A DNA stretch of 21,611 nt from a virus, in the IMG/VR virus record IMGVR_UViG_3300025151_000351, positions 1 to 21,611 of that record. One strand, given 5' to 3'. A model generated the notes under the pieces. It saw only the letters and a list, made by a program, of their open reading frames with translations, was not told the origin of the DNA and did not search any database. A program made the position numbers and the translations under genes. Each line of letters begins with the position of its first letter. Within the stretch, counting starts at the first letter, position 1. Below are positions 7,563 to 19,977 of the stretch, one piece after another.

Positions 7563-9434
7563 ATGACAAAACAAATAACTGAAGTAACACAAATGACAGG
7601 AAGTGCGGAGGGTTTATCACTTCTAATAGATTCTTGGAGAAATCAAATAGCTCAAGATCAACAATACAGAGAGTTTACACAAAACTCAATTGAATCAATT
7701 AAAAGAGTACAAAAGAAAAACCCGGAATATAAAGGTATTATCAAATGGTGTATTGACGAAAGATACCTAAAAAAACATAAAGTAAAAAAATTATGTATCA
7801 TTGACAATGGTGAAGGTATGACTCCACAAGAGATGTTACTAAATATAAATAGTTTAGGTGGTTCCACTAGAAACAATGAACACTATAATCATGGTTGTGG
7901 TGCAAAGATTGCGGGTCTTGCACATAACAGAGAAGGTTTAATTTATAGATCTTGGAAAAATGGACAAGGTTATGTTGCTAAATTTATGCGTAATGAAATG
8001 GGTCAATATGGTGCCGTGAAAGTGCATGGTCGTAACACCCATCCACTACCAGATATTGAAAAACCTGCTGAGATAAAAGAACATGGTTGTATGGTTACAT
8101 TATTGGGTGATAGTCCTAAACAAAATACAACCGAACCAGTAAAGGGTAATTATGGAACTCTCTTAAAAAATTCTAGAAATTCCAAAGCTGAATGGTTGAC
8201 TGCATATCTAAATACTAAATTTTATCATGTACCAAATAATATAAAAATAAGTTGTTCTAGGTTTACAACAGATACTGGAGTAACAAACATAATAAGAGGA
8301 CACGAGTATGGGTTGGGACTTGATTTTGAAAAACAAGATGAAGTTCAATTAACAAAAACAAAAGTAAAAATTTTCTATAGAGAAAAATTGGCATATTTAA
8401 AAACTAGTAATAAAACAAATTACTTGACAAACGGACAGTTGGCCATAGTCAATCAAGATGAAGTTATTAAGCTAGAGTTCTCTAGTGGCGGTGGTGTCAA
8501 CCCATTACCAGCATGGGGATTACAGTGTTTAAAGAAAAATGTTGCATTAGTTTTGATACCCGAAGGTCAATTTAAACAAAACATTGAACGAACTGACTTA
8601 ACTCACGAAGGTATGAGTATTAATGAACAATTAAACTTGTGGAAGACAGAGTTTAGAGAAGCTATGCCTCAGTGGTTAAAAGACATTGAAGCTAAAAAAC
8701 AATTAGAACAGATGGAAAAAGATAATGACACAGAAACAAGACTAAAAAATCTATCTTCATTGTTTAAAAAAGAGCGTTACTTTAATTCTGAAACGGGAGA
8801 CGTTGACATTGAAGAAGATGAAAAAAGAAAAGCTTCAAGTAAAAAAGAAGGTAAAAAGGTCGAACCTGATCCGAATCCTAATCCAAACCATGATCCTAAA
8901 GACGAGTTTGGTAAGATAGATGCTATCTTTGGAGTTGAGGTGGATAGAAGTAAATATAAAGGTAAAAAGATAAATATAATTAATGAATATCCTGATGTTC
9001 TTAAAACAAATGAAGGTCCATCACCGATAATAGGTTCTTTCGAAAAGAGTAATTATACCATTGAGATAAATGTAGAATCTGATTTGGTGGTAGAACTAAC
9101 TGATTATCTTTATAAAAAATTTAATAAGATAATGAGAACTGTTATAGTTGATGAGGTTTTTAGATTAATTGGTTTAAGTCTTAGACAACAAGTAGCCCAT
9201 GTACATAATAGAATGGGCGCTACTGAGGAAGAGATTGACAATGCTCTAAGTCCTTTGTCCTTGACAGCATGTGCCGCTAATAAAGATTTTATTGTGGATA
9301 GATTAAAAACTAGGTTCAGTAATAAAGATGTTAAAAATAATTGGCCAAAAGATAGAGAGGAGTCTGGAGACATAGAGGAGCATAATTTTCATATTAGAAA
9401 TAATCCTAATAGATTTCCAATTGGTCTTAAATAG
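7563..9434 (+). CDS. GHKL-fold (Hsp90/MORC-like) ATPase
   Basis: A 623-residue protein whose first third is a GHKL ATP-binding domain. The N-box FTQNSIESI has E37 and N41 with the four-residue spacing of Hsp90 and MutL. The G1 box is IIDNGEGM (D81, G83, G85). The G2 loop is HGCGAKIAGLAHN (G111, G113, K115), and HGCMVTLLGD is the last motif. A second domain ends in QNIERTDLTHEG, like the linker domain of Hsp90 or MORC proteins. Residues about 380-460 form a charged linker with a Pro-Asn run (DPNPNPNHDPKD). A helical C-terminal domain follows (residues about 500-600, including RLIGLSLRQQVAHVHNRMG). It is probably an ATP-driven clamp acting on DNA or protein. It is followed one base later by a nuclease gene, suggesting joint action. 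Confidence 0.85.
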   Translation: MTKQITEVTQMTGSAEGLSLLIDSWRNQIAQDQQYREFTQNSIESIKRVQKKNPEYKGIIKWCIDERYLKKHKVKKLCIIDNGEGMTPQEMLLNINSLGGSTRNNEHYNHGCGAKIAGLAHNREGLIYRSWKNGQGYVAKFMRNEMGQYGAVKVHGRNTHPLPDIEKPAEIKEHGCMVTLLGDSPKQNTTEPVKGNYGTLLKNSRNSKAEWLTAYLNTKFYHVPNNIKISCSRFTTDTGVTNIIRGHEYGLGLDFEKQDEVQLTKTKVKIFYREKLAYLKTSNKTNYLTNGQLAIVNQDEVIKLEFSSGGGVNPLPAWGLQCLKKNVALVLIPEGQFKQNIERTDLTHEGMSINEQLNLWKTEFREAMPQWLKDIEAKKQLEQMEKDNDTETRLKNLSSLFKKERYFNSETGDVDIEEDEKRKASSKKEGKKVEPDPNPNPNHDPKDEFGKIDAIFGVEVDRSKYKGKKINIINEYPDVLKTNEGPSPIIGSFEKSNYTIEINVESDLVVELTDYLYKKFNKIMRTVIVDEVFRLIGLSLRQQVAHVHNRMGATEEEIDNALSPLSLTACAANKDFIVDRLKTRFSNKDVKNNWPKDREESGDIEEHNFHIRNNPNRFPIGLK

Positions 9435-11442: not shown

Positions 11443-11805
11443 GTGAAATCAGAAACAAAATTTTACCATGAAGTTAAAAAATCTTTATCAAAAATATCTT
11501 GGATTAGAATTGAAAACCTTAGTTTACCTGGGACTCCTGACCTATTGGGGTGTTCTCCTAGGGGCACCTTTTTCACAGTAGAGTTGAAGGTTACAAAAAC
11601 AAACAAAGTCAGACTGTCTCCACATCAAATAGCATTCCATATTAAACATCCGAAGAATACTTTTATCTTGGTTAAGACCCAGAAGCCTGGTTCTGTAAAA
11701 CTTTATGAGGGATCAAGAATCAAGGAGCTTGTCGCTTGCGGCTTGAAGCTTGACGCTTGTTGCTTGACACTTGATGCTTGCCGCTTGAAGCTTGAATCTC
11801 TGTAG
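11443..11805 (+). CDS. VRR-NUC-like PD-(D/E)XK nuclease
   Basis: Starts with GTG at 11443. The first 65 residues carry the nuclease core. A helix (ETKFYHEVKKSLSK) is followed by LPGTPDLLG with D33, then TFFTVELKVTK with E47 and K49, and VRLSPHQIAFH with Q62. This is the pattern of VRR-NUC domains and Holliday-junction-type resolvases that cut branched DNA. The C-terminal 25 or so residues (VACGLKLDACCLTLDACRL and on) are a translated 7-bp DNA repeat and are unlikely to matter for catalysis. On the opposite strand the same repeat is open in the 56-aa gene at 11720-11890. Confidence 0.8.
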   Translation: MKSETKFYHEVKKSLSKISWIRIENLSLPGTPDLLGCSPRGTFFTVELKVTKTNKVRLSPHQIAFHIKHPKNTFILVKTQKPGSVKLYEGSRIKELVACGLKLDACCLTLDACRLKLESL

Positions 11806-11890
11806 GCTTGTCGCTTGGCGCTTGCTGCTTTTCTAATTCTTTTTTTCGCTTGGCCATCTCCTGCCAATACTTCGGGGACCTATAAACCAT
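11720..11890 (-). CDS. 56-aa basic repeat protein, antisense to the VRR-NUC 3' end
   Basis: A leftward frame starting at ATG 11890, 12 bases after the stop of the GP88-like gene. The first half is MVYRSPKYWQEMAKRKKELE. The second half is the 7-bp repeat read as SSGKHQV, SSNKRQA and SSRKRQA heptads, so the protein is basic and polar. Its 3' half overlaps the C-terminal coding part of the VRR-NUC gene. No ribosome site is visible, so expression may depend on coupling from the gene upstream. The non-repeat start looks like real protein, but I would not exclude an accidental frame. Confidence 0.45.
   Translation of the reverse strand: MVYRSPKYWQEMAKRKKELEKQQAPSDKPTEIQASSGKHQVSSNKRQASSRKRQAP
11727..11833. 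repeat. 7-bp GCTTGNN tandem repeat
   Basis: Ten contiguous units at 11727-11796 (GCTTGTC, GCTTGCG, GCTTGAA, GCTTGAC, GCTTGTT, GCTTGAC, ACTTGAT, GCTTGCC, GCTTGAA, GCTTGAA). A 9-base break then contains the VRR-NUC stop, followed by four more units to 11833, the last one degenerate (GCTTTTC). The first five bases are nearly fixed and the last two vary. Because 7 and 3 share no factor, three units make a 7-residue protein repeat. Related units recur at 12545-12562. Confidence 0.85.
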
Positions 11891-11902: not shown

Positions 11903-12496
11903 TTAGTGTTTGCCGTAACTTACAACTTTTATTGAAGAATCCCAACAAGCCCGACAATCTCCACACTTGCCACCCTGCTTTGGTGCCGGGCAACTTGCAC
12001 CACTGTCAACAACCATTGAAGAGTTAGGCCACGTCTCCACGCTTTGGCCTATCATTGGCGGACTAAATCTAATAATTAAATTTTCAGGCTTCCTGTCTAA
12101 ATGATCCTTGATCCATGCTTCACGCGTCGGGAGCCAGTGATTCGTATCCGGTGTCGCTTCACAAATTTTAAAAATATTGTTTAAGTGTTGTAAGTCCTGG
12201 ACGTCTCCGGCGTCATGCCACCTGAACCACTTTTGACGCTTGATCACCACTATCATTGCATCCACCCACAACGGTGACTTCATAGCTTCCAATCTTTTAT
12301 ATTGTGCAGCCTTAATAGCTTTGTATCTTGTATAGTTACCCTTCAGAGCATAACACATGCTGCAAACGCTGCCTTTAATTTTTCTAAGCTTAGAACCTGT
12401 TTTGCATTCCCACGCCGGTAGACTGTAACTAAGTCCAGGCATTTTAGAAGTTCTAGTAAATGATCCCGTAATTTTTAAAGCTTCTTTTACTTTCAT
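11903..12496 (-). CDS. GP88-like Cys-rich phage protein
   Basis: I chose ATG 12496, with an AAAGGAT ribosome site directly ahead, over an upstream TTG at 12532. The 197-residue protein resembles the phage Gene product 88 family. KGSVCSMCYALKGNYTRY has C45 and C48, with C31 upstream. The middle has WFRWHDAGDVQDLQHLNNIF, followed by THWLPTREAW with NHW in place of the first residues. The end has CPAPKQGGKCGDCRACWD with C169, C178, C181 and C184. Six or more conserved cysteines in CxxC and CxxCxxC groups suggest a zinc or iron-sulphur site. The biochemical role of the family is not established. A strong promoter with a palindrome lies just upstream. Confidence 0.68.
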   Translation of the reverse strand: MKVKEALKITGSFTRTSKMPGLSYSLPAWECKTGSKLRKIKGSVCSMCYALKGNYTRYKAIKAAQYKRLEAMKSPLWVDAMIVVIKRQKWFRWHDAGDVQDLQHLNNIFKICEATPDTNHWLPTREAWIKDHLDRKPENLIIRFSPPMIGQSVETWPNSSMVVDSGASCPAPKQGGKCGDCRACWDSSIKVVSYGKH

Positions 12497-12503
12497 AATA
12501 TCC

Positions 12504-12532
12504 TTTATAATCCTATATATAATAAATGTCAA
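12504..12532 (-). promoter_or_regulatory. Leftward sigma70-type promoter of the GP88-like gene
   Basis: Reading left, -35 TTGACA at 12532-12527, a 17-base spacer and -10 TATAAA at 12509-12504. The transcript would start about at the ATG 12496 or a few bases before it, so this promoter gives a very short leader. The -35 box overlaps the end of a perfect palindrome (12530-12549). Confidence 0.6.
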
Positions 12533-12549
12533 GCGGCAATTGCCGCTTG
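12530..12549. repeat. Perfect 20-bp palindrome next to GCTTG units
   Basis: CAAGCGGCAATTGCCGCTTG is its own reverse complement. Its right arm continues into GCTTGCC and GCTTGTT units (12545-12558), so it is made of two opposed copies of the 7-bp repeat. It lies over the -35 box of the leftward promoter and could serve as an operator, or form a cruciform. Confidence 0.8.
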
Positions 12550-12560
12550 CCGCTTGTTGC

Positions 12561-12725
12561 TTAAATCTTTTTTAATCTTTTTATTTCTGTATAAACTTCC
12601 GTCAATTGCGGTAGGTCCGCTGTTTCCGCAAAGTCTATAATTTCTTTTCTAATTTCTTTTTTCTTTTCAAATTGCTTTGCTTTGTTTTCAGATTGTAACG
12701 CTTGTATTATTTCATCTTGTGTCAT
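12561..12725 (-). CDS. 54-aa charged helical protein
   Basis: A leftward gene from ATG 12725 with an unusually purine-rich ribosome site (AAGGGGGG, 3 bases ahead). The protein starts MTQDEIIQALQSENKAKQFE and is almost wholly helix-forming, with alternating Lys and Glu and hydrophobic positions compatible with a short coiled coil (KKKEIRKEIIDFAETADLPQ). Its stop is set by the start of the GCTTG repeat region. No family recognised; possibly a small regulator or protein-binding partner. Confidence 0.6.
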   Translation of the reverse strand: MTQDEIIQALQSENKAKQFEKKKEIRKEIIDFAETADLPQLTEVYTEIKRLKKI

Positions 12726-13124: not shown

Positions 13125-13703
13125 TTAATTAATTGTTTCACCTATAGGTGGTAACGCTTTTTGATCCTTGGTCCAGGTCAAGCCATCTTTTTTAAGATTG
13201 CTTTGGAGCTTGTCGCGTAAGTCCGCCGGGCTTCCTGCTTCCATGATGTCTTTTAAAGATACTCTTTTATTGTCTTCTAATATCTTTAATGCTTTACCTT
13301 CCGGAGTTTTTTCAATTTGTTTTCGCGCAAGATCCCCGGCCCATTCTCTTATTTGCTCCCAACAATCATCAGGCGTTATGCTGCTTGAATTGTAACCATT
13401 TATATCAAATTCCTTTTCACGAAATTTGTAATTGACTTCTTTTTTTCTGGCTACCTTGGAAGTTCTAAAGAACCGCGCCGCCTTACTCATTTTGGTTTTT
13501 ACATTTTCAATAGCCTTCTCCAGCTCTTCAATGATAGGCGTTGCGCCTATTTCATCCGCTAGATTTTTTTCAGCTATCTCCACCGCTTCTGCTTCAAGCG
13601 ATCTTATTTTTAATTGTGCAGCTTGGATCAATGGGTCGTAGTCCCTGTCTAGTTCTTTTACGAACCAATCACGCTGCCATTTTTGCATTGTTGCTTTTGC
13701 CAT
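13125..13703 (-). CDS. Uncharacterised 192-aa helical protein
   Basis: A leftward gene from ATG 13703 with an AGAAAGGA ribosome site. The protein is almost all helix: MAKATMQKWQRDWFVKELD at the start, then a long charged region (residues about 20-80, LKIRSLEAEAVEIAEKNLA) likely to be a coiled coil. A basic stretch (RFFRTSKVARKKEVNYKF) and a C-terminal part with WEQIREWAGDLARKQIEK follow. No known domain was recognised. It is the first gene of the leftward block and is driven by the promoter at 13755-13727. Its higher GC content resembles the GP88-like gene and not the phage average. Confidence 0.72.
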   Translation of the reverse strand: MAKATMQKWQRDWFVKELDRDYDPLIQAAQLKIRSLEAEAVEIAEKNLADEIGATPIIEELEKAIENVKTKMSKAARFFRTSKVARKKEVNYKFREKEFDINGYNSSSITPDDCWEQIREWAGDLARKQIEKTPEGKALKILEDNKRVSLKDIMEAGSPADLRDKLQSNLKKDGLTWTKDQKALPPIGETIN

Positions 13704-13726: not shown

Positions 13727-13755
13727 TTTATAAACTACTTGACAAACATTGTCAA
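13727..13755 (-). promoter_or_regulatory. Leftward promoter of the divergent pair
   Basis: Reading left, -35 TTGACA at 13755-13750, a 17-base spacer and -10 TATAAA at 13732-13727. Transcription would begin near 13720, 17 bases before the ATG at 13703. Its -35 box lies inside the spacer of the rightward promoter at 13739-13767. Confidence 0.65.
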
Positions 13756-13767
13756 TGGGATTATATA
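13739..13767 (+). promoter_or_regulatory. Rightward promoter toward the terminase large subunit
   Basis: -35 TTGACA at 13739-13744, a 17-base spacer and -10 TATATA at 13762-13767, with a start near 13774. The -35 is one arm of the inverted repeat TTGACA-N5-TGTCAA (13739-13755), whose other arm is the -35 of the leftward promoter. It would give the packaging and head genes an untranslated leader of about 520 bases. Confidence 0.65.
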
Positions 13768-13870
13768 GGAGATAGCGTCTGTTTACTTGTTCCGACGTCG
13801 TTAAACTCAAACAAGTGGGATAAGATCCAGGGTCACACCGCTACTTTTCGTTGGCCGTCTTCCCTGGATG

Positions 13871-13928
13871 CTGATCCCTGGTCCAATGAAGATGGAGACG
13901 TCCGGGCAGTAATTGGACCTGGGATCAG
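13871..13928. repeat. Inverted repeat arms 1 and 2 (17 bp, one mismatch)
   Basis: CTGATCCCTGGTCCAAT (13871-13887) faces ATTGGACCTGGGATCAG (13912-13928) across a 24-base loop; 16 of 17 positions pair. Arm 2 is also the left half of the palindrome at 13915-13942. Confidence 0.85.
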
Positions 13929-13942
13929 CTGATCCCAGGTCC
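13915..13942. repeat. Perfect 28-bp palindrome (arms 2 and 3)
   Basis: The half-site GGACCTGGGATCAG is followed at once by its exact complement, with no spacer; the centre is CAGCTG. The base pairs just outside do not match, so the palindrome has sharp ends. It competes with the pairs formed by arms 1-2 and 3-4. Confidence 0.9.
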
Positions 13943-14032
13943 TGTATACGGAAGGCCAATCGTTGGTGGTTAAGGTGCGAAAGATGCCATCTCGTACGAC
14001 GATCGCGCCACGACAACAGGACCTGGGATCAG
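13929..14032. repeat. Inverted repeat arms 3 and 4 (16 bp, perfect)
   Basis: CTGATCCCAGGTCCTG (13929-13944) pairs perfectly with CAGGACCTGGGATCAG (14017-14032) across a 72-base loop. Arm 3 is the right half of the 28-bp palindrome, so the two structures exclude each other. Confidence 0.85.
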
Positions 14033-14118
14033 TTAAGCTGGAGCAGGCTCCGTTAAATAACGCGGCTGGCTTTCTGGTCCGGCAATACAGTACTCCGGCG
14101 TTGCTAAAGCACTGGAAA

Positions 14119-14155
14119 GGTTTACCACCTTCCTGGATATCCAGGAAGGTAAACC
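14119..14155. repeat. Nested palindrome, 24-bp perfect core with outer arms
   Basis: The core 14127-14150 is a perfect 24-bp palindrome with half-site ACCTTCCTGGAT. Just outside, GGTTTACC (14119-14126) matches GGTAAACC (14148-14155), so a 3-base insertion separates two alignments of the same repeat. There is no T-run directly after it, so a simple terminator is unlikely. Confidence 0.85.
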
Positions 14156-14297
14156 CGAATAGAGGTACCAGGCTTCATTCAATTTTTGCAATTTTTTATT
14201 TTAGTTGATTACCATTTATACAAAAGGGGTCCCAACATATGGCCATATATTGCAGGATTTGTATATTTATGATAGGAAAATACTTTATGGGACTCCT

Positions 14298-15776
14298 ATG
14301 AACCTAGATAAAGAAAAATTAAAAAATTTAGATAAGTTACCACCGGATGTAAAAAGACAGTTTGCCTTGTACATGAATCAATGGCAAGAGAAGAAAAAGG
14401 AGTCTCAGATAGCAACTGATTTTTTAAGTTTTGTAAAACATGTTTGGCCAGATTTTGTAGAAGGGTCCCATCATAAACAGGTCGCAAAAAAATTTAATGA
14501 TATTGCAAATGGAAAAATAAAGCGTGTTATAATTAATATGGCACCTAGACATACTAAGTCTGAGTTTGCATCTTATCTTTTACCTGCATGGATGGTGGGT
14601 CGTAATCCTAAATTAAAAATTATTCAATCAACTAATACAACTGAACTATCTGTAAGGTTTGGTCGTAAAGCAAAACAATTAATTGATTCGCAGGAATATC
14701 AACAAGTATTTAAAACAAGACTTAAAGAAGATAGTCAAGCTGCTGGTAAATGGGAAACAGAACAAGGCGGTGAATATTATGCTGCGGGTGTTGGCTCTGC
14801 AATTACAGGAAGAGGTGCTGACCTTTTAATTATTGATGACCCACATACTGAACAAGATGCTATGAACGCTGCAGCACTGGAGAGAACTTACGAGTGGTAT
14901 ACTTCTGGTCCACGTCAACGTCTTCAACCTGGGGGTACGATTGTAATTGTAATGACTCGTTGGAACGAAAAAGATTTAACCGGTAGATTAATATCTGCAC
15001 AAAAAGAACCTAAAGCTGATCAATGGGAGGTAATAGAGTTCCCTGCTATTATGCCTTCCGGTAAACCCCTGTGGCCTGAATACTGGAACTTGAAAGATTT
15101 AGAAGCAGTTAAAGCATCTATTCCGTTATCAAAATGGAATGCACAATACATGCAGAATCCAACTGCAGAAGAAGGATCATTAATCAAGAGAGAATGGTGG
15201 CAAGACTGGGACGGAGACATACCACAATTAGAACATATTATACAATCTTACGATACAGCTTTTATGAAAAAAACTTCTGCAGACTTTTCTGCAATTACAA
15301 CATGGGGTGTATTCACACCGGATCAAGATTCAGGGCAGCACTTAATATTGGTGGATGCTATAAAAGGTCGTTATGAATTTCCTGAACTACGTCGTATCGC
15401 ATTAGATCAATACGGATACTGGAAGCCTGAAACCGTAATCATTGAGTCTAAAGCATCAGGACTCCCATTAACTTATGAGTTGCGAAAGATGGGTATTCCT
15501 GTTATAAATTTCTCACCCTCTAAAGGTAACGATAAACACACGAGGGTTAACGCAGTTTCTCCGCTGTTTGAATCCGGGAGAATATGGGCGCCCAAAGAAA
15601 TGGAATTTGCTCAAGAAGTGATAGAGGAATGTGCTGCTTTTCCTTTTGGAGATCACGATGACTTGGTAGATTCTATGACACAAGCAGTGATGAGATTTAG
15701 ACAAGGCGGATTTGTAATGCATCCTGAAGACTATCAAGATGAACCAACGCCACAAAAGAGGAGGACATACTATTAA
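14298..15776 (+). CDS. terL: Terminase large subunit
   Basis: Packaging motor ATPase and headful or cos nuclease. I chose ATG 14298 (492 residues) over an upstream in-frame TTG because the protein then starts MNLDKEKLKNLDKLPPD, the usual form in this group. The ATPase half has a deviant Walker A, APRHTKSE (82-89), a Walker B LLIIDDP (D180-D181), and a coupling motif in MTRWNEKDL. The nuclease half has SYDTAF (D319), VIIESKASG and DHDDLVDS (D454-D455). A tiny 4-codon frame (ATG 14287) ends in TGA at 14299-14301, overlapping the start, and may couple or tune translation. The long structured leader upstream is unusual for this gene. Confidence 0.95.
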   Translation: MNLDKEKLKNLDKLPPDVKRQFALYMNQWQEKKKESQIATDFLSFVKHVWPDFVEGSHHKQVAKKFNDIANGKIKRVIINMAPRHTKSEFASYLLPAWMVGRNPKLKIIQSTNTTELSVRFGRKAKQLIDSQEYQQVFKTRLKEDSQAAGKWETEQGGEYYAAGVGSAITGRGADLLIIDDPHTEQDAMNAAALERTYEWYTSGPRQRLQPGGTIVIVMTRWNEKDLTGRLISAQKEPKADQWEVIEFPAIMPSGKPLWPEYWNLKDLEAVKASIPLSKWNAQYMQNPTAEEGSLIKREWWQDWDGDIPQLEHIIQSYDTAFMKKTSADFSAITTWGVFTPDQDSGQHLILVDAIKGRYEFPELRRIALDQYGYWKPETVIIESKASGLPLTYELRKMGIPVINFSPSKGNDKHTRVNAVSPLFESGRIWAPKEMEFAQEVIEECAAFPFGDHDDLVDSMTQAVMRFRQGGFVMHPEDYQDEPTPQKRRTYY

Positions 15777-17466: not shown

Positions 17467-19977
17467 ATGGCAGATGATACTATAGACAAGGCTCTACCTA
17501 ACGAGCCTAGAAAAGAATTCTCATTACCTGGTGAAGAAGAAATTCAAGAAGAAGTTTTAGAAGAAGTTAAAAAAGATTCAGAGTCTCCTGATGACGTAGA
17601 GATAACTGAAAATGAAGATGGGTCTGTTGACATTGATTTAGATCCGGCTGCTGCAACACCGGAAGGTGGCGATGAGCATTATGCAAACTTAGCAGATTTT
17701 TTACCGGATGAAGTATTAGCATCTTTGTCTTCTGATTTAAATTCAAAGTACATGGATTATGTTTCTTCTAGAAAAGATTGGGAAAAAAGTTATACTCAAG
17801 GTTTAGATTTATTAGGGTTTAAATATGATCAAAGAACAGAACCTTTTCAAGGCGCTTCTGGCGCGACTCACCCGGTGTTGGCGGAAGCTGTTACTCAGTT
17901 TCAAGCGCTCGCTTATAAAGAGTTACTCCCGGCTGATGGACCAGTCAGAACACAAATCTTAGGACTACAAACTCCAGATAAAGTTCAACAAGCTTCTCGT
18001 GTAAAAGATTTCATGAATTATCAAATCATGGATCAGATGAAAGAATACGAGCCAGAATTTGATTCTATGTTATTCCATTTACCTTTATCAGGTTCAACTT
18101 TTAAAAAAGTTTACTATGATGAGGTGGAAGGACGAGCTGTATCAAAGTTCGTTCCTGCAGATGATTTAATCGTTCCGTACACGGCTACCTCATTAGACGA
18201 TGCGGAAGCGATTATTCATCGCGTAAAAATTTCTGAAAACGAATTAAGAAAACAACAGGTTGCTGGTTTCTATAGAGATATAGAATTAGGACAAGCTCAA
18301 GATAAAGAATCTGAAGTTGACAAAAAAGAAAGAGAATTAGAAGGAGTTAAAAAAACAAAAGACGAAGATTTATATACCTTGTTAGAGTGTCATGTAAATT
18401 TAGATTTAGAAGGATTTGAAAATATAAATGAAGAAACTGGTGAACCATCTGGAATCAAACTTCCTTACATTGTAACCTTAGAAGAAGGTTCTACAGAAAT
18501 TTTATCAATAAAAAGAAATTATGAAATTGGAGATCTGAAGAGAAATAAAATACAGTACTTTGTCCACTTTAAATTTCTGCCAGGACTAGGTTTCTACGGC
18601 TTCGGTCTCATCCATATGATTGGTGGTTTGTCAAGAACTGCAACAGCAGCTCTTCGTCAATTATTGGATGCGGGTACGCTCTCCAACTTACCCGCAGGAT
18701 TTAAAATGCGTGGCATCCGAATCAGAGATGACGCACAATCAATACAACCAGGTGAGTTTAGAGATGTAGATGCACCAGGTGGTAATTTAAGAGATTCATT
18801 TATGATGTTACCATTTAAGGAACCATCACAAACATTATTGAGTCTAATGGGTATCGTAGTTCAAGCGGGTCAAAGATTTGCATCAATTGCTGACATGCAA
18901 GTTGGAGATGGAAATCAAAGAGCAGCAGTTGGAACTACAGTTGCATTATTGGAGCGTGGTTCCAGAACCATGTCTGCTATACACAAAAGAATTTACTCAG
19001 CTCTTAAAAATGAATTTCAATTATTAGCTAGAGTATTTAAGTTATATCTACCACAAGAGTATCCATATGATGTAGTTGGGGGTCAAAGAATGATTAAACA
19101 AACAGACTTTGATGATAGAGTAGATATTTTGCCAGTTGCTGACCCCAACATTTTCTCTCAAACTCAGCGTATTTCCCTCGCGCAAACGGAGTTGCAGCTG
19201 GCACAATCTAATCCTCAAATGCATAATTTATATCAAGCTTATAGAAATATGTACGAAGCGTTAGGTGTAAAAAATATTGATTCGATATTAATGAAACCAA
19301 TGCCACCTGCACCAAAAGATCCTGCATTAGAACACATTGATGCATTAGGTGGTAAACCTTTTCAAGCTTTTCCAGGTCAAGATCATAGGTCTCACATTAC
19401 AGCCCACTTAAGTTTTATGGCAACTAACATGGCAAGAAACAATCCTATGGTGATGGCAAGCTTAGAAAAAAATATTTTTGAACATATTAGTTTAATGGCT
19501 CAAGAACAGATTGAATTAGAGTTTAGAAATGAATTACAACAGCTACAACAGATGCAAATGCAGATACAACAGAATCCTATGATGGCTCAACAGATGCAAA
19601 TGCAAATTTTAGAGATGCAACAAAAGATTGAAGCAAGGAAAGCTATGCTGATTGCAGAGATGATGGAAGAGTTTATGAACGAAGAGAAGAAAATTACATC
19701 ACAATTTGACAATGATCCAATTGCAAAACTAAGATCTAGAGAATTAGACCTAAGAGCTCAAGAAAATGCTAGAAAAGAACGTGAAGGTAAGGAAAGAATG
19801 GACCTTGACAAGATGAGAGCTATGTTAAATCAAGCAAACACTGATGAAAAACTAGATCAAAATGAAGAATTAGCAAAATTAAGAGCTGATACATCAATTG
19901 AAAAGACAATTTTAAGTAAGACACTACCTAATTCTGATCAAATGGTGCCAAATATTAACATCATAAGAAAACAATAA
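17467..19977 (+). CDS. Portal protein
   Basis: Head-tail connector through which DNA is packaged and ejected. A GGAG ribosome site lies 8 bases before the ATG. The 836-residue protein has an acidic N-terminal tail (about 1-70, with EEEIQEEVLEEVKKDSE). The portal body includes DLLGFKYDQRTEPFQGASGATHP and FHLPLSGSTFKKVYYDEVEG. Conserved regions follow around 380-500 (GGLSRTATAALRQLLDAGTL, and RAAVGTTVALLERGSRTMSA). The C-terminal part at about 690-745 is a Gln/Met-rich coiled coil (QQMQMQIQQNPMMAQQ), then a charged helical tail. Length and domain plan fit the large portals of podovirus-like phages. Its position after terL supports the call. Confidence 0.88.
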   Translation: MADDTIDKALPNEPRKEFSLPGEEEIQEEVLEEVKKDSESPDDVEITENEDGSVDIDLDPAAATPEGGDEHYANLADFLPDEVLASLSSDLNSKYMDYVSSRKDWEKSYTQGLDLLGFKYDQRTEPFQGASGATHPVLAEAVTQFQALAYKELLPADGPVRTQILGLQTPDKVQQASRVKDFMNYQIMDQMKEYEPEFDSMLFHLPLSGSTFKKVYYDEVEGRAVSKFVPADDLIVPYTATSLDDAEAIIHRVKISENELRKQQVAGFYRDIELGQAQDKESEVDKKERELEGVKKTKDEDLYTLLECHVNLDLEGFENINEETGEPSGIKLPYIVTLEEGSTEILSIKRNYEIGDLKRNKIQYFVHFKFLPGLGFYGFGLIHMIGGLSRTATAALRQLLDAGTLSNLPAGFKMRGIRIRDDAQSIQPGEFRDVDAPGGNLRDSFMMLPFKEPSQTLLSLMGIVVQAGQRFASIADMQVGDGNQRAAVGTTVALLERGSRTMSAIHKRIYSALKNEFQLLARVFKLYLPQEYPYDVVGGQRMIKQTDFDDRVDILPVADPNIFSQTQRISLAQTELQLAQSNPQMHNLYQAYRNMYEALGVKNIDSILMKPMPPAPKDPALEHIDALGGKPFQAFPGQDHRSHITAHLSFMATNMARNNPMVMASLEKNIFEHISLMAQEQIELEFRNELQQLQQMQMQIQQNPMMAQQMQMQILEMQQKIEARKAMLIAEMMEEFMNEEKKITSQFDNDPIAKLRSRELDLRAQENARKEREGKERMDLDKMRAMLNQANTDEKLDQNEELAKLRADTSIEKTILSKTLPNSDQMVPNINIIRKQ

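Follow-up and report, generated by a model that had tools for sequence, protein, structure and literature searches.

The stretch of DNA analysed here (the window; 21,611 nt) is a 21.6-kb virus fragment that carries DNA polymerase A, helicase, TerS, TerL and portal genes. Its TerL shares 81% identity with the TerL of Pelagibacter phage HTVC027P, which was isolated on Candidatus Pelagibacter HTCC1062 and is classed as HTVC023P-type (PMC12753301). The initial annotation covered only four complementary arms upstream of terL, which it described as having the topology of an attenuator. Judged from its sequence, the real object is an array at 13739–14157, in which a sigma-70-type promoter with a palindromic operator is followed by at least six putative structured RNA modules (Table 1). 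The operator palindrome inside the promoter was absent from that annotation, as were the 5′ pseudoknot-like module, module C and the hairpins up to 14157. No conserved protein was found within 13739–14157.

Table 1. Positions of the array, its modules and neighbouring genes in the window
Feature	Position	Strand	Description
Promoter	13739–13767	+	TTGACA (13739–13744), 17-nt spacer, TATATA (13762–13767); from sequence
Operator-like palindrome	13739–13755		TTGACA-AACAT-TGTCAA; overlaps the −35 element and spacer
Module A	13781–13819	+	5′ pseudoknot-like; stem ACTTGTT/AACAAGT, A-rich TTAAACTCAAA; pseudoknot assigned by eye
Module C	13825–13869	+	outer stem, G-UCACACC/CGUCUUC internal loop, inner stem-loop
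D hairpin 1 (arms 1, 2)	13871–13928	+	stem CUGAUCCC-U.U-GGUCCAAU, tip GAAGAUGGAGACGUCCGGGCAGUA
D hairpin 2 (arms 3, 4)	13929–14032	+	D-type stem, 76-nt tip; pair probability 0.94
Module E	14033–14076	+	stem-loop with GUUAAAUAACGCGGCUGGC; blastn and reading
Modules F and G	14077–14157	+	CCGGCAAUACAGUACUCCGG element; 24-bp palindromic hairpin (14127–14150) closing the array
ORF of 192 aa (ORF192)	13125–13703	−	divergent from the array promoter
GP88 (PF17338, phrog_1392)	11903–12532	−	commonly neighbours the array downstream in relatives
terL	14298–15776	+	adjoins the array in the window's clade only

Most of these parts recur in related loci, which are designated below by L-numbers. The stem of module A varies in relatives with matched changes in its partner strand (ACTTGT/ACAAGT, ACTAGT/ACTAGT and ACCTGT/ACAGGT), module E is found in the same sense in the arrays of L013, L035, L037 and L052 (by blastn and reading), and modules F and G are found in L001 and L003. 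The 3′ boundary of the array was placed at 14157 because homology to the terL leaders of array-less phages starts at 14158. A search for an intrinsic terminator at the 3′ end of the array was negative, so that read-through into terL or gp34/GP88 is possible. Beyond the boundary, the ~140 nt at 14158–14297 (AATAGAGGTACC...AAAAGGGGTCCCA) recur before terL in many of 80 relatives, whether or not the array is adjacent, and are a possible terL leader or terminase site. Elsewhere in the window, the intergenic stretches 11726–11829 and 12537–12568 contain seven-base tandem repeats CAAGCNN (GCTTGNN on the + strand), which in relatives lie between the array and GP88, often directly before the GP88 promoter. 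Positions 7563–9431 encode a 623-aa product that has no match in PHROG and contains an ATPase domain of the histidine kinase/HSP90 type (PF13589).

Arms, palindrome and predicted fold

An inverted-repeat search recovers all four arms. Arms 1 and 2 form an inverted repeat of 18 nt (13870–13887/13912–13929; 94%, with T.T as the sole mismatch), and arms 3 and 4 one of 17 nt (13929–13945/14016–14032; 100%). Arms 2 and 3 match at 100% over 14+14 nt with zero gap (13915–13928/13929–13942), giving a perfect 28-bp palindrome, as against 16 bp for the longest palindrome among 1000 dinucleotide shuffles of the element. The topology that had been described, in which 1:2 can coexist with 3:4 but 2:3 rules out either, is therefore confirmed along with the arms and the palindrome. 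By their sequence, 1:2 and 3:4 are adjacent copies of one hairpin type, termed D. The palindrome arises because two D hairpins with like stem ends abut, and is a by-product of neighbouring like hairpins. An exact search of viral contigs for the 28-bp palindrome gave zero matches, blastn of the element against phage records gave zero homologs, and no further D hairpins were found elsewhere in the window.

The 429 nt 3′ of the promoter are predicted to fold at −177.6 kcal/mol (z = −6.9 against shuffles). In the complete array RNA, the mean pair probability is 0.93–0.94 for 1:2 and 3:4 and 3e-8 for 2:3, and imposing 2:3 on the full transcript costs 11.8 kcal/mol. The 2:3 pairing is preferred only if the 3′ end of the transcript falls between about 13942 and 14031, and because only such incomplete transcripts prefer it, the 2:3 fold is predicted to be possible in principle but transient.

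Homologous arrays in related phages

Relatives were collected via TerL (80 related contigs), and blastn places homologous pieces either directly before terL (L001–L003) or ~2 kb off on the opposite strand. The shared order is promoter, module A (pseudoknot-like), module C, D hairpin, more hairpins and, ahead of GP88, 7-bp repeats followed by a second promoter. A pattern of C followed by D, for which the chance expectation in the viral collection is estimated at less than about one, matched 100 viral stretches, and 82 distinct arrays were parsed. This pattern was used instead of a loose pattern for C alone, which was contaminated by chance matches in GC-rich DNA; 18 C-D matches in bacterial genomes, with low complementarity and scattered taxa, look like chance. 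All 105 further loci reached through D-pattern matches carry HTVC023P-type marker genes. More than 150 HTVC023P-type pelagiphage contigs contain homologous arrays, which are usually encoded on the opposite strand to terL, between gp35 and GP88. Because IMG/VR contigs are partly redundant and related, array counts do not represent independent events.

At the typical locus gp35/ORF192 is divergent, GP88 and TerS lie downstream on the array's strand (GP88 in 60 of 64 cases) and terL occupies the opposite strand. Accordingly, 42 of 46 placed arrays are opposite in sense to terL, and 4 of 46 are adjacent to it in the same sense. In the window, L168 (=L001), L211 (=L003) and L246, array and ORF192 are inverted together relative to most relatives. 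The survival of array and promoter as a unit through this inversion suggests an autonomous transcription unit and argues against a leader of terL. HTVC023P itself has no array, and a D hairpin is absent in 12 of the 23 terL loci with 3 kb upstream, some of which have other modules. L001 matches the window closely in terL (98.1% identity), ORF192 (98.4%) and promoter plus modules A and C (98.8%), yet it carries a single D hairpin with a different tip and then other modules, so that arms 3 and 4 are missing, which we read as rapid turnover of the array. At L002 (2666–3000), where terL is 98.4% identical to that of the window, a shortened array with a weaker module C (40.2 bits) and a degenerate D hairpin suggests an array in decay.

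The promoter TTGACA-N16-18-TATAWN stands upstream of 117 homologous arrays, 112 of which have the operator palindrome TTGAC..GTCAA in that promoter; when all distinct promoter-like sites of the same loci are taken together, 66 have the palindrome and 64 do not. Promoter-type sites precede module C in 44 of 74 arrays, compared with 132 of 1640 random windows. The array thus appears to possess a promoter of its own, as is characteristic of structured noncoding RNAs of phages.

Selection on RNA structure is evident in modules C and D. Across 36 module C sequences, 94.4% of cells are paired versus 61.8% in shuffles, a percentage that is biased by the selection of sequences in which the first six pairs of the outer stem and three pairs of the inner stem are intact (at least five of six), whereby modules with a bulged outer stem were excluded. 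The same set holds 149 double-sided changes versus 38.6 shuffled, and pairing drops to 27–50% when the structures are slid out of register. The internal loop GUCACACC/CGUCUUC is invariant, and a covariance model of the module (R1) scores 51.4 bits on the window (E = 2e-10); module C is not in Rfam. The sequence GUCACACC (13832–13839) equals a universal stretch of helix 44 in 16S rRNA, a match that may be due to chance. Module C is optional, since HTVC027P, 023Pt_psg01 and HTVC023P lack it.

The D stem is characterized by a constant CUGAUCCC, a U.U mismatch and GRUCY, the ninth position being a T.T mismatch in 96 of 110 hairpins and A-T or T-A in 12. Double changes in D stems number 109 versus 34.5 shuffled. 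Among 287 hairpins, G-U outnumbers A-C by 102 to 2, an asymmetry unaffected by the pairing criterion (14 of 16) with which D hairpins were gathered, which inflates the percentage paired. Such an excess of G-U implies selection on the RNA of the promoter's strand and not on the other strand or on double-stranded DNA. The helices of C and D therefore covary on one strand, as do those of structured noncoding RNAs of phages. The compensatory changes that the initial annotation had proposed to seek in relatives are present inside each hairpin, but the competing 2:3 pairing is unconserved.

In contrast with the constant stem, the tips (D hairpin minus 14 nt of stem per side) are hypervariable. A first set of 110 D hairpins gave 87 tip families, and the enlarged set of 287 gave 217, with 170 singletons and a Chao1 estimate of about 640. 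Over 619 kb of array loci, every D hairpin falls within −188 to +488 relative to module C. A lone D hairpin is seen in 48 of 77 arrays, and the two members touch in only 2 of the 34 consecutive D pairs. The tip of the window's D hairpin 1 recurs unaltered in L253 (=L013) and, together with compensated changes in both stem and tip, in L141 (=L044), whereas the 76-nt tip of D hairpin 2 stands alone in the clustering of D tips. Stems that differ by compensated pairs can carry identical tips (L090, L099 and L240; L141, L215 and L244), and tips are also found in non-D hairpins, for example GGCCUGUUGCCCGGGCUAUUAAAAUAAAGCACGCCGGCC in L003, L004 and L048. Tip reuse is in sense in 233 cases versus 4 in antisense, nearly always inside arrays. 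Most of the 20 matches outside array neighbourhoods fall in anchorless array loci (L297, L274, L275 and L318) or stem from a single L003 coding hairpin misread as D. From this pattern, D tips evidently move from array to array and from stem to stem while keeping one orientation. No convincing spacer-like targets of the tips were found in 2.6 Mb of related viral DNA beyond other array loci. A tRNA-like look of the L160 tip was discounted, as the likeness is not retained in its relatives L292 and L331.

Some arrays include a module of the Rfam family RF02976 (Flavobacterium-1, 'Gene; sRNA'; a single motif of 121 nt with a gathering score of 58.9). It matches four arrays only, those of L065 (110.3 bits), L046 (88.5 bits), L116 (114.6 bits) and HTVC027P (90.2 bits; 17753–17873, minus strand), and has no match in the window. 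At relaxed E-value, an Rfam scan yielded nothing but chance miRNA matches in the window and no match in seven array loci, and RF02976 was not found in 395 sampled Bacteroidota genomes, searched with stricter filters and no positive control. The Flavobacterium-1 RNA reportedly stems from a 2017 paper. In the HTVC027P record MN698241, the stretch 17671–18218 is unannotated, and its reverse strand opens with the promoter TTGACAATGGGATAGTCAAGGATTATATA and holds a D hairpin. Infection RNA-seq exists for this phage (PRJNA1253180); the corresponding paper makes no mention of noncoding, sRNA or intergenic, and reports that gp33 and gp34, just downstream of the array, are highly expressed at 6–9 h (PMC12753301). 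The gp34 gene (L084:9021–9161), a 46-aa ORF directly 3′ of the array, is named peptidase C33-associated protein and shows early-middle expression (PMC12753301), which could partly be read-through from the array. No papers describing such hairpin arrays were found in the open-licence literature.

Rival readings of the array

An attenuator or riboswitch for terL, alternating between the exclusive 1:2/3:4 and 2:3 folds, would agree with the topology and with the preference for 2:3 in transcripts ending at 13942–14031. The alternative pairing is however unconserved, given the rarity of abutting D pairs and the prevalence of arrays with one D hairpin; the near-identical L001 and L002 (terL 98% DNA identity) lack the arrangement, most relatives have the array on the opposite strand, ~2 kb away from terL, with 4 of 46 in a terL-leader position, and 2:3 has a vanishing probability at full length. 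The terL switch is thus largely refuted and extremely unlikely, and from the regulatory leader RNA envisaged in the initial annotation there survives the structured noncoding RNA region behind a promoter, but not the role as leader or switch of terL. A cis-acting leader or antiterminator of the put type (HK022), modifying RNA polymerase or the message of the downstream operon (gp34-GP88-TerS in most phages, terL in the window), accounts for an array that begins near the promoter, ends without a detected intrinsic terminator and has GP88 downstream in the same sense, and for the high expression of gp33/gp34 in HTVC027P. On the other hand, in those relatives that were read by eye GP88 is preceded by a TTGACA-N17-TATA promoter of its own, the inversion sets the array before an unrelated gene and yet array and promoter are kept, and the 217 tip families are left unexplained, all of which makes a cis role unlikely. 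A packaging RNA like phi29 pRNA is very improbable: the window's clade does place a structured phage RNA beside terL, but the array is optional, absent in HTVC023P, hypervariable in its modules and usually away from terL. The put RNA of HK022 is structured and near a promoter, and phi29 pRNA is structured and tied to packaging; neither is known to have hypervariable exchangeable tips.

In favour of a DNA-level element, be it a recombination site, a cruciform or a packaging/terminase site, near-palindromic stems, an unpaired position and variable tips recall the anatomy of integron attC sites, and TerS and TerL lie within a few kb. Such an element is nevertheless quite improbable, in view of the excess of G-U over A-C on one strand, the fixed order behind a promoter, the reuse of tips almost only in sense, the strand-specific internal loop of module C and the absence of gene cassettes between hairpins. 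The hairpins stand back to back or are separated by other hairpins, and no integrase was identified among the genes examined. Dispersed palindromic mobile repeats of the REP/BIME or MITE type could place hairpins with the same stem ends side by side, but the tips are mutually unrelated and the single-locus distribution of D hairpins refutes this reading, the probability of which is next to nil. The cruciform, packaging site and mobile repeat that the initial annotation had entertained are all disfavoured by this evidence.

Known systems and proposed function

The array is likely to encode an independently promoted modular noncoding RNA (13739–14157), with constant parts, variable tips and a presumed action in trans. 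CRISPR, TIGR and integron arrays likewise combine a constant element with a variable part and exchange units. Here, however, what varies is a folded tip within a single hairpin. Genes for Cas, Tas or an integrase were not identified beside the array and, unlike CRISPR spacers, the tips have no spacer-like matches outside arrays in the 2.6 Mb searched. Type III (ToxI-like) RNA antitoxin repeats are tandem pseudoknot RNA units. The STAXI motif also forms tandem pseudoknot RNA units, near DNA-manipulating or antirestriction genes (PMC2864571). Both repeat one unit, whereas the units of the array differ and share only the stem base. Flavobacterium-1, which supplies a module to some arrays, consists of just one 121-nt motif and covers neither A, C, D nor the array. 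GOLLD and ROOL are large structured noncoding RNAs of phages and prophages without known function, one of them marine (PMC12286853), but each is one co-evolving fold, and both assemble into cages, whereas the modules here are independent, shuffled and hypervariable, and the arrays have no Rfam match to either. Racr anti-CRISPRs are phage small RNAs with their own promoter that mimic a host RNA and sequester proteins (PMC10651486). By analogy, they might serve as a model for how the tips act, although Racr are solitary CRISPR-repeat mimics and D hairpins join a constant stem to variable tips.

For the modular RNA, we infer that the array transcript would be made during infection, cut or read as separate hairpins, and act in trans. 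Modules A and C and the D stem would serve as the handle for a shared partner, e.g. an RNase or a protein that binds RNA, and the tips would recognise targets that differ from tip to tip; these targets, most probably proteins or RNAs of the host or of a competitor, would thereby be titrated or blocked. Tips as decoys of host or competitor factors are the function we favour, albeit tentatively. A constant scaffold, diverse swapped tips, fast turnover and a single locus would be the pattern expected of conflict-driven binders, and one constant stem with hundreds of tips suggests a fast-evolving RNA toolkit. It is conceivable, if still doubtful, that the locus is an RNA display array, in which a fixed scaffold presents interchangeable tips, aptamer-like and numbering in the hundreds, that recombination moves from phage to phage and each of which neutralises a different component of host defence or of a competitor. 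We regard the array as previously unrecognised.

SAR11 is the dominant bacterial group of the surface ocean. The HTVC023P-type phages are widespread pelagiphages (PMC9599517), and their hypervariable modular RNA locus is missing from the annotations examined and, one module apart, from Rfam. It is directly testable in HTVC027P, an isolate with a culturable host, published infection RNA-seq and an array at 17671–18218. If the tips bind different targets, the arrays would constitute a naturally occurring repertoire of RNA binders, moulded by the conflict between phage and host, and would offer a route to the anti-phage means of SAR11. A display array, if true, would be the RNA counterpart of a variable protein arsenal in phages of the most abundant bacteria of the sea.
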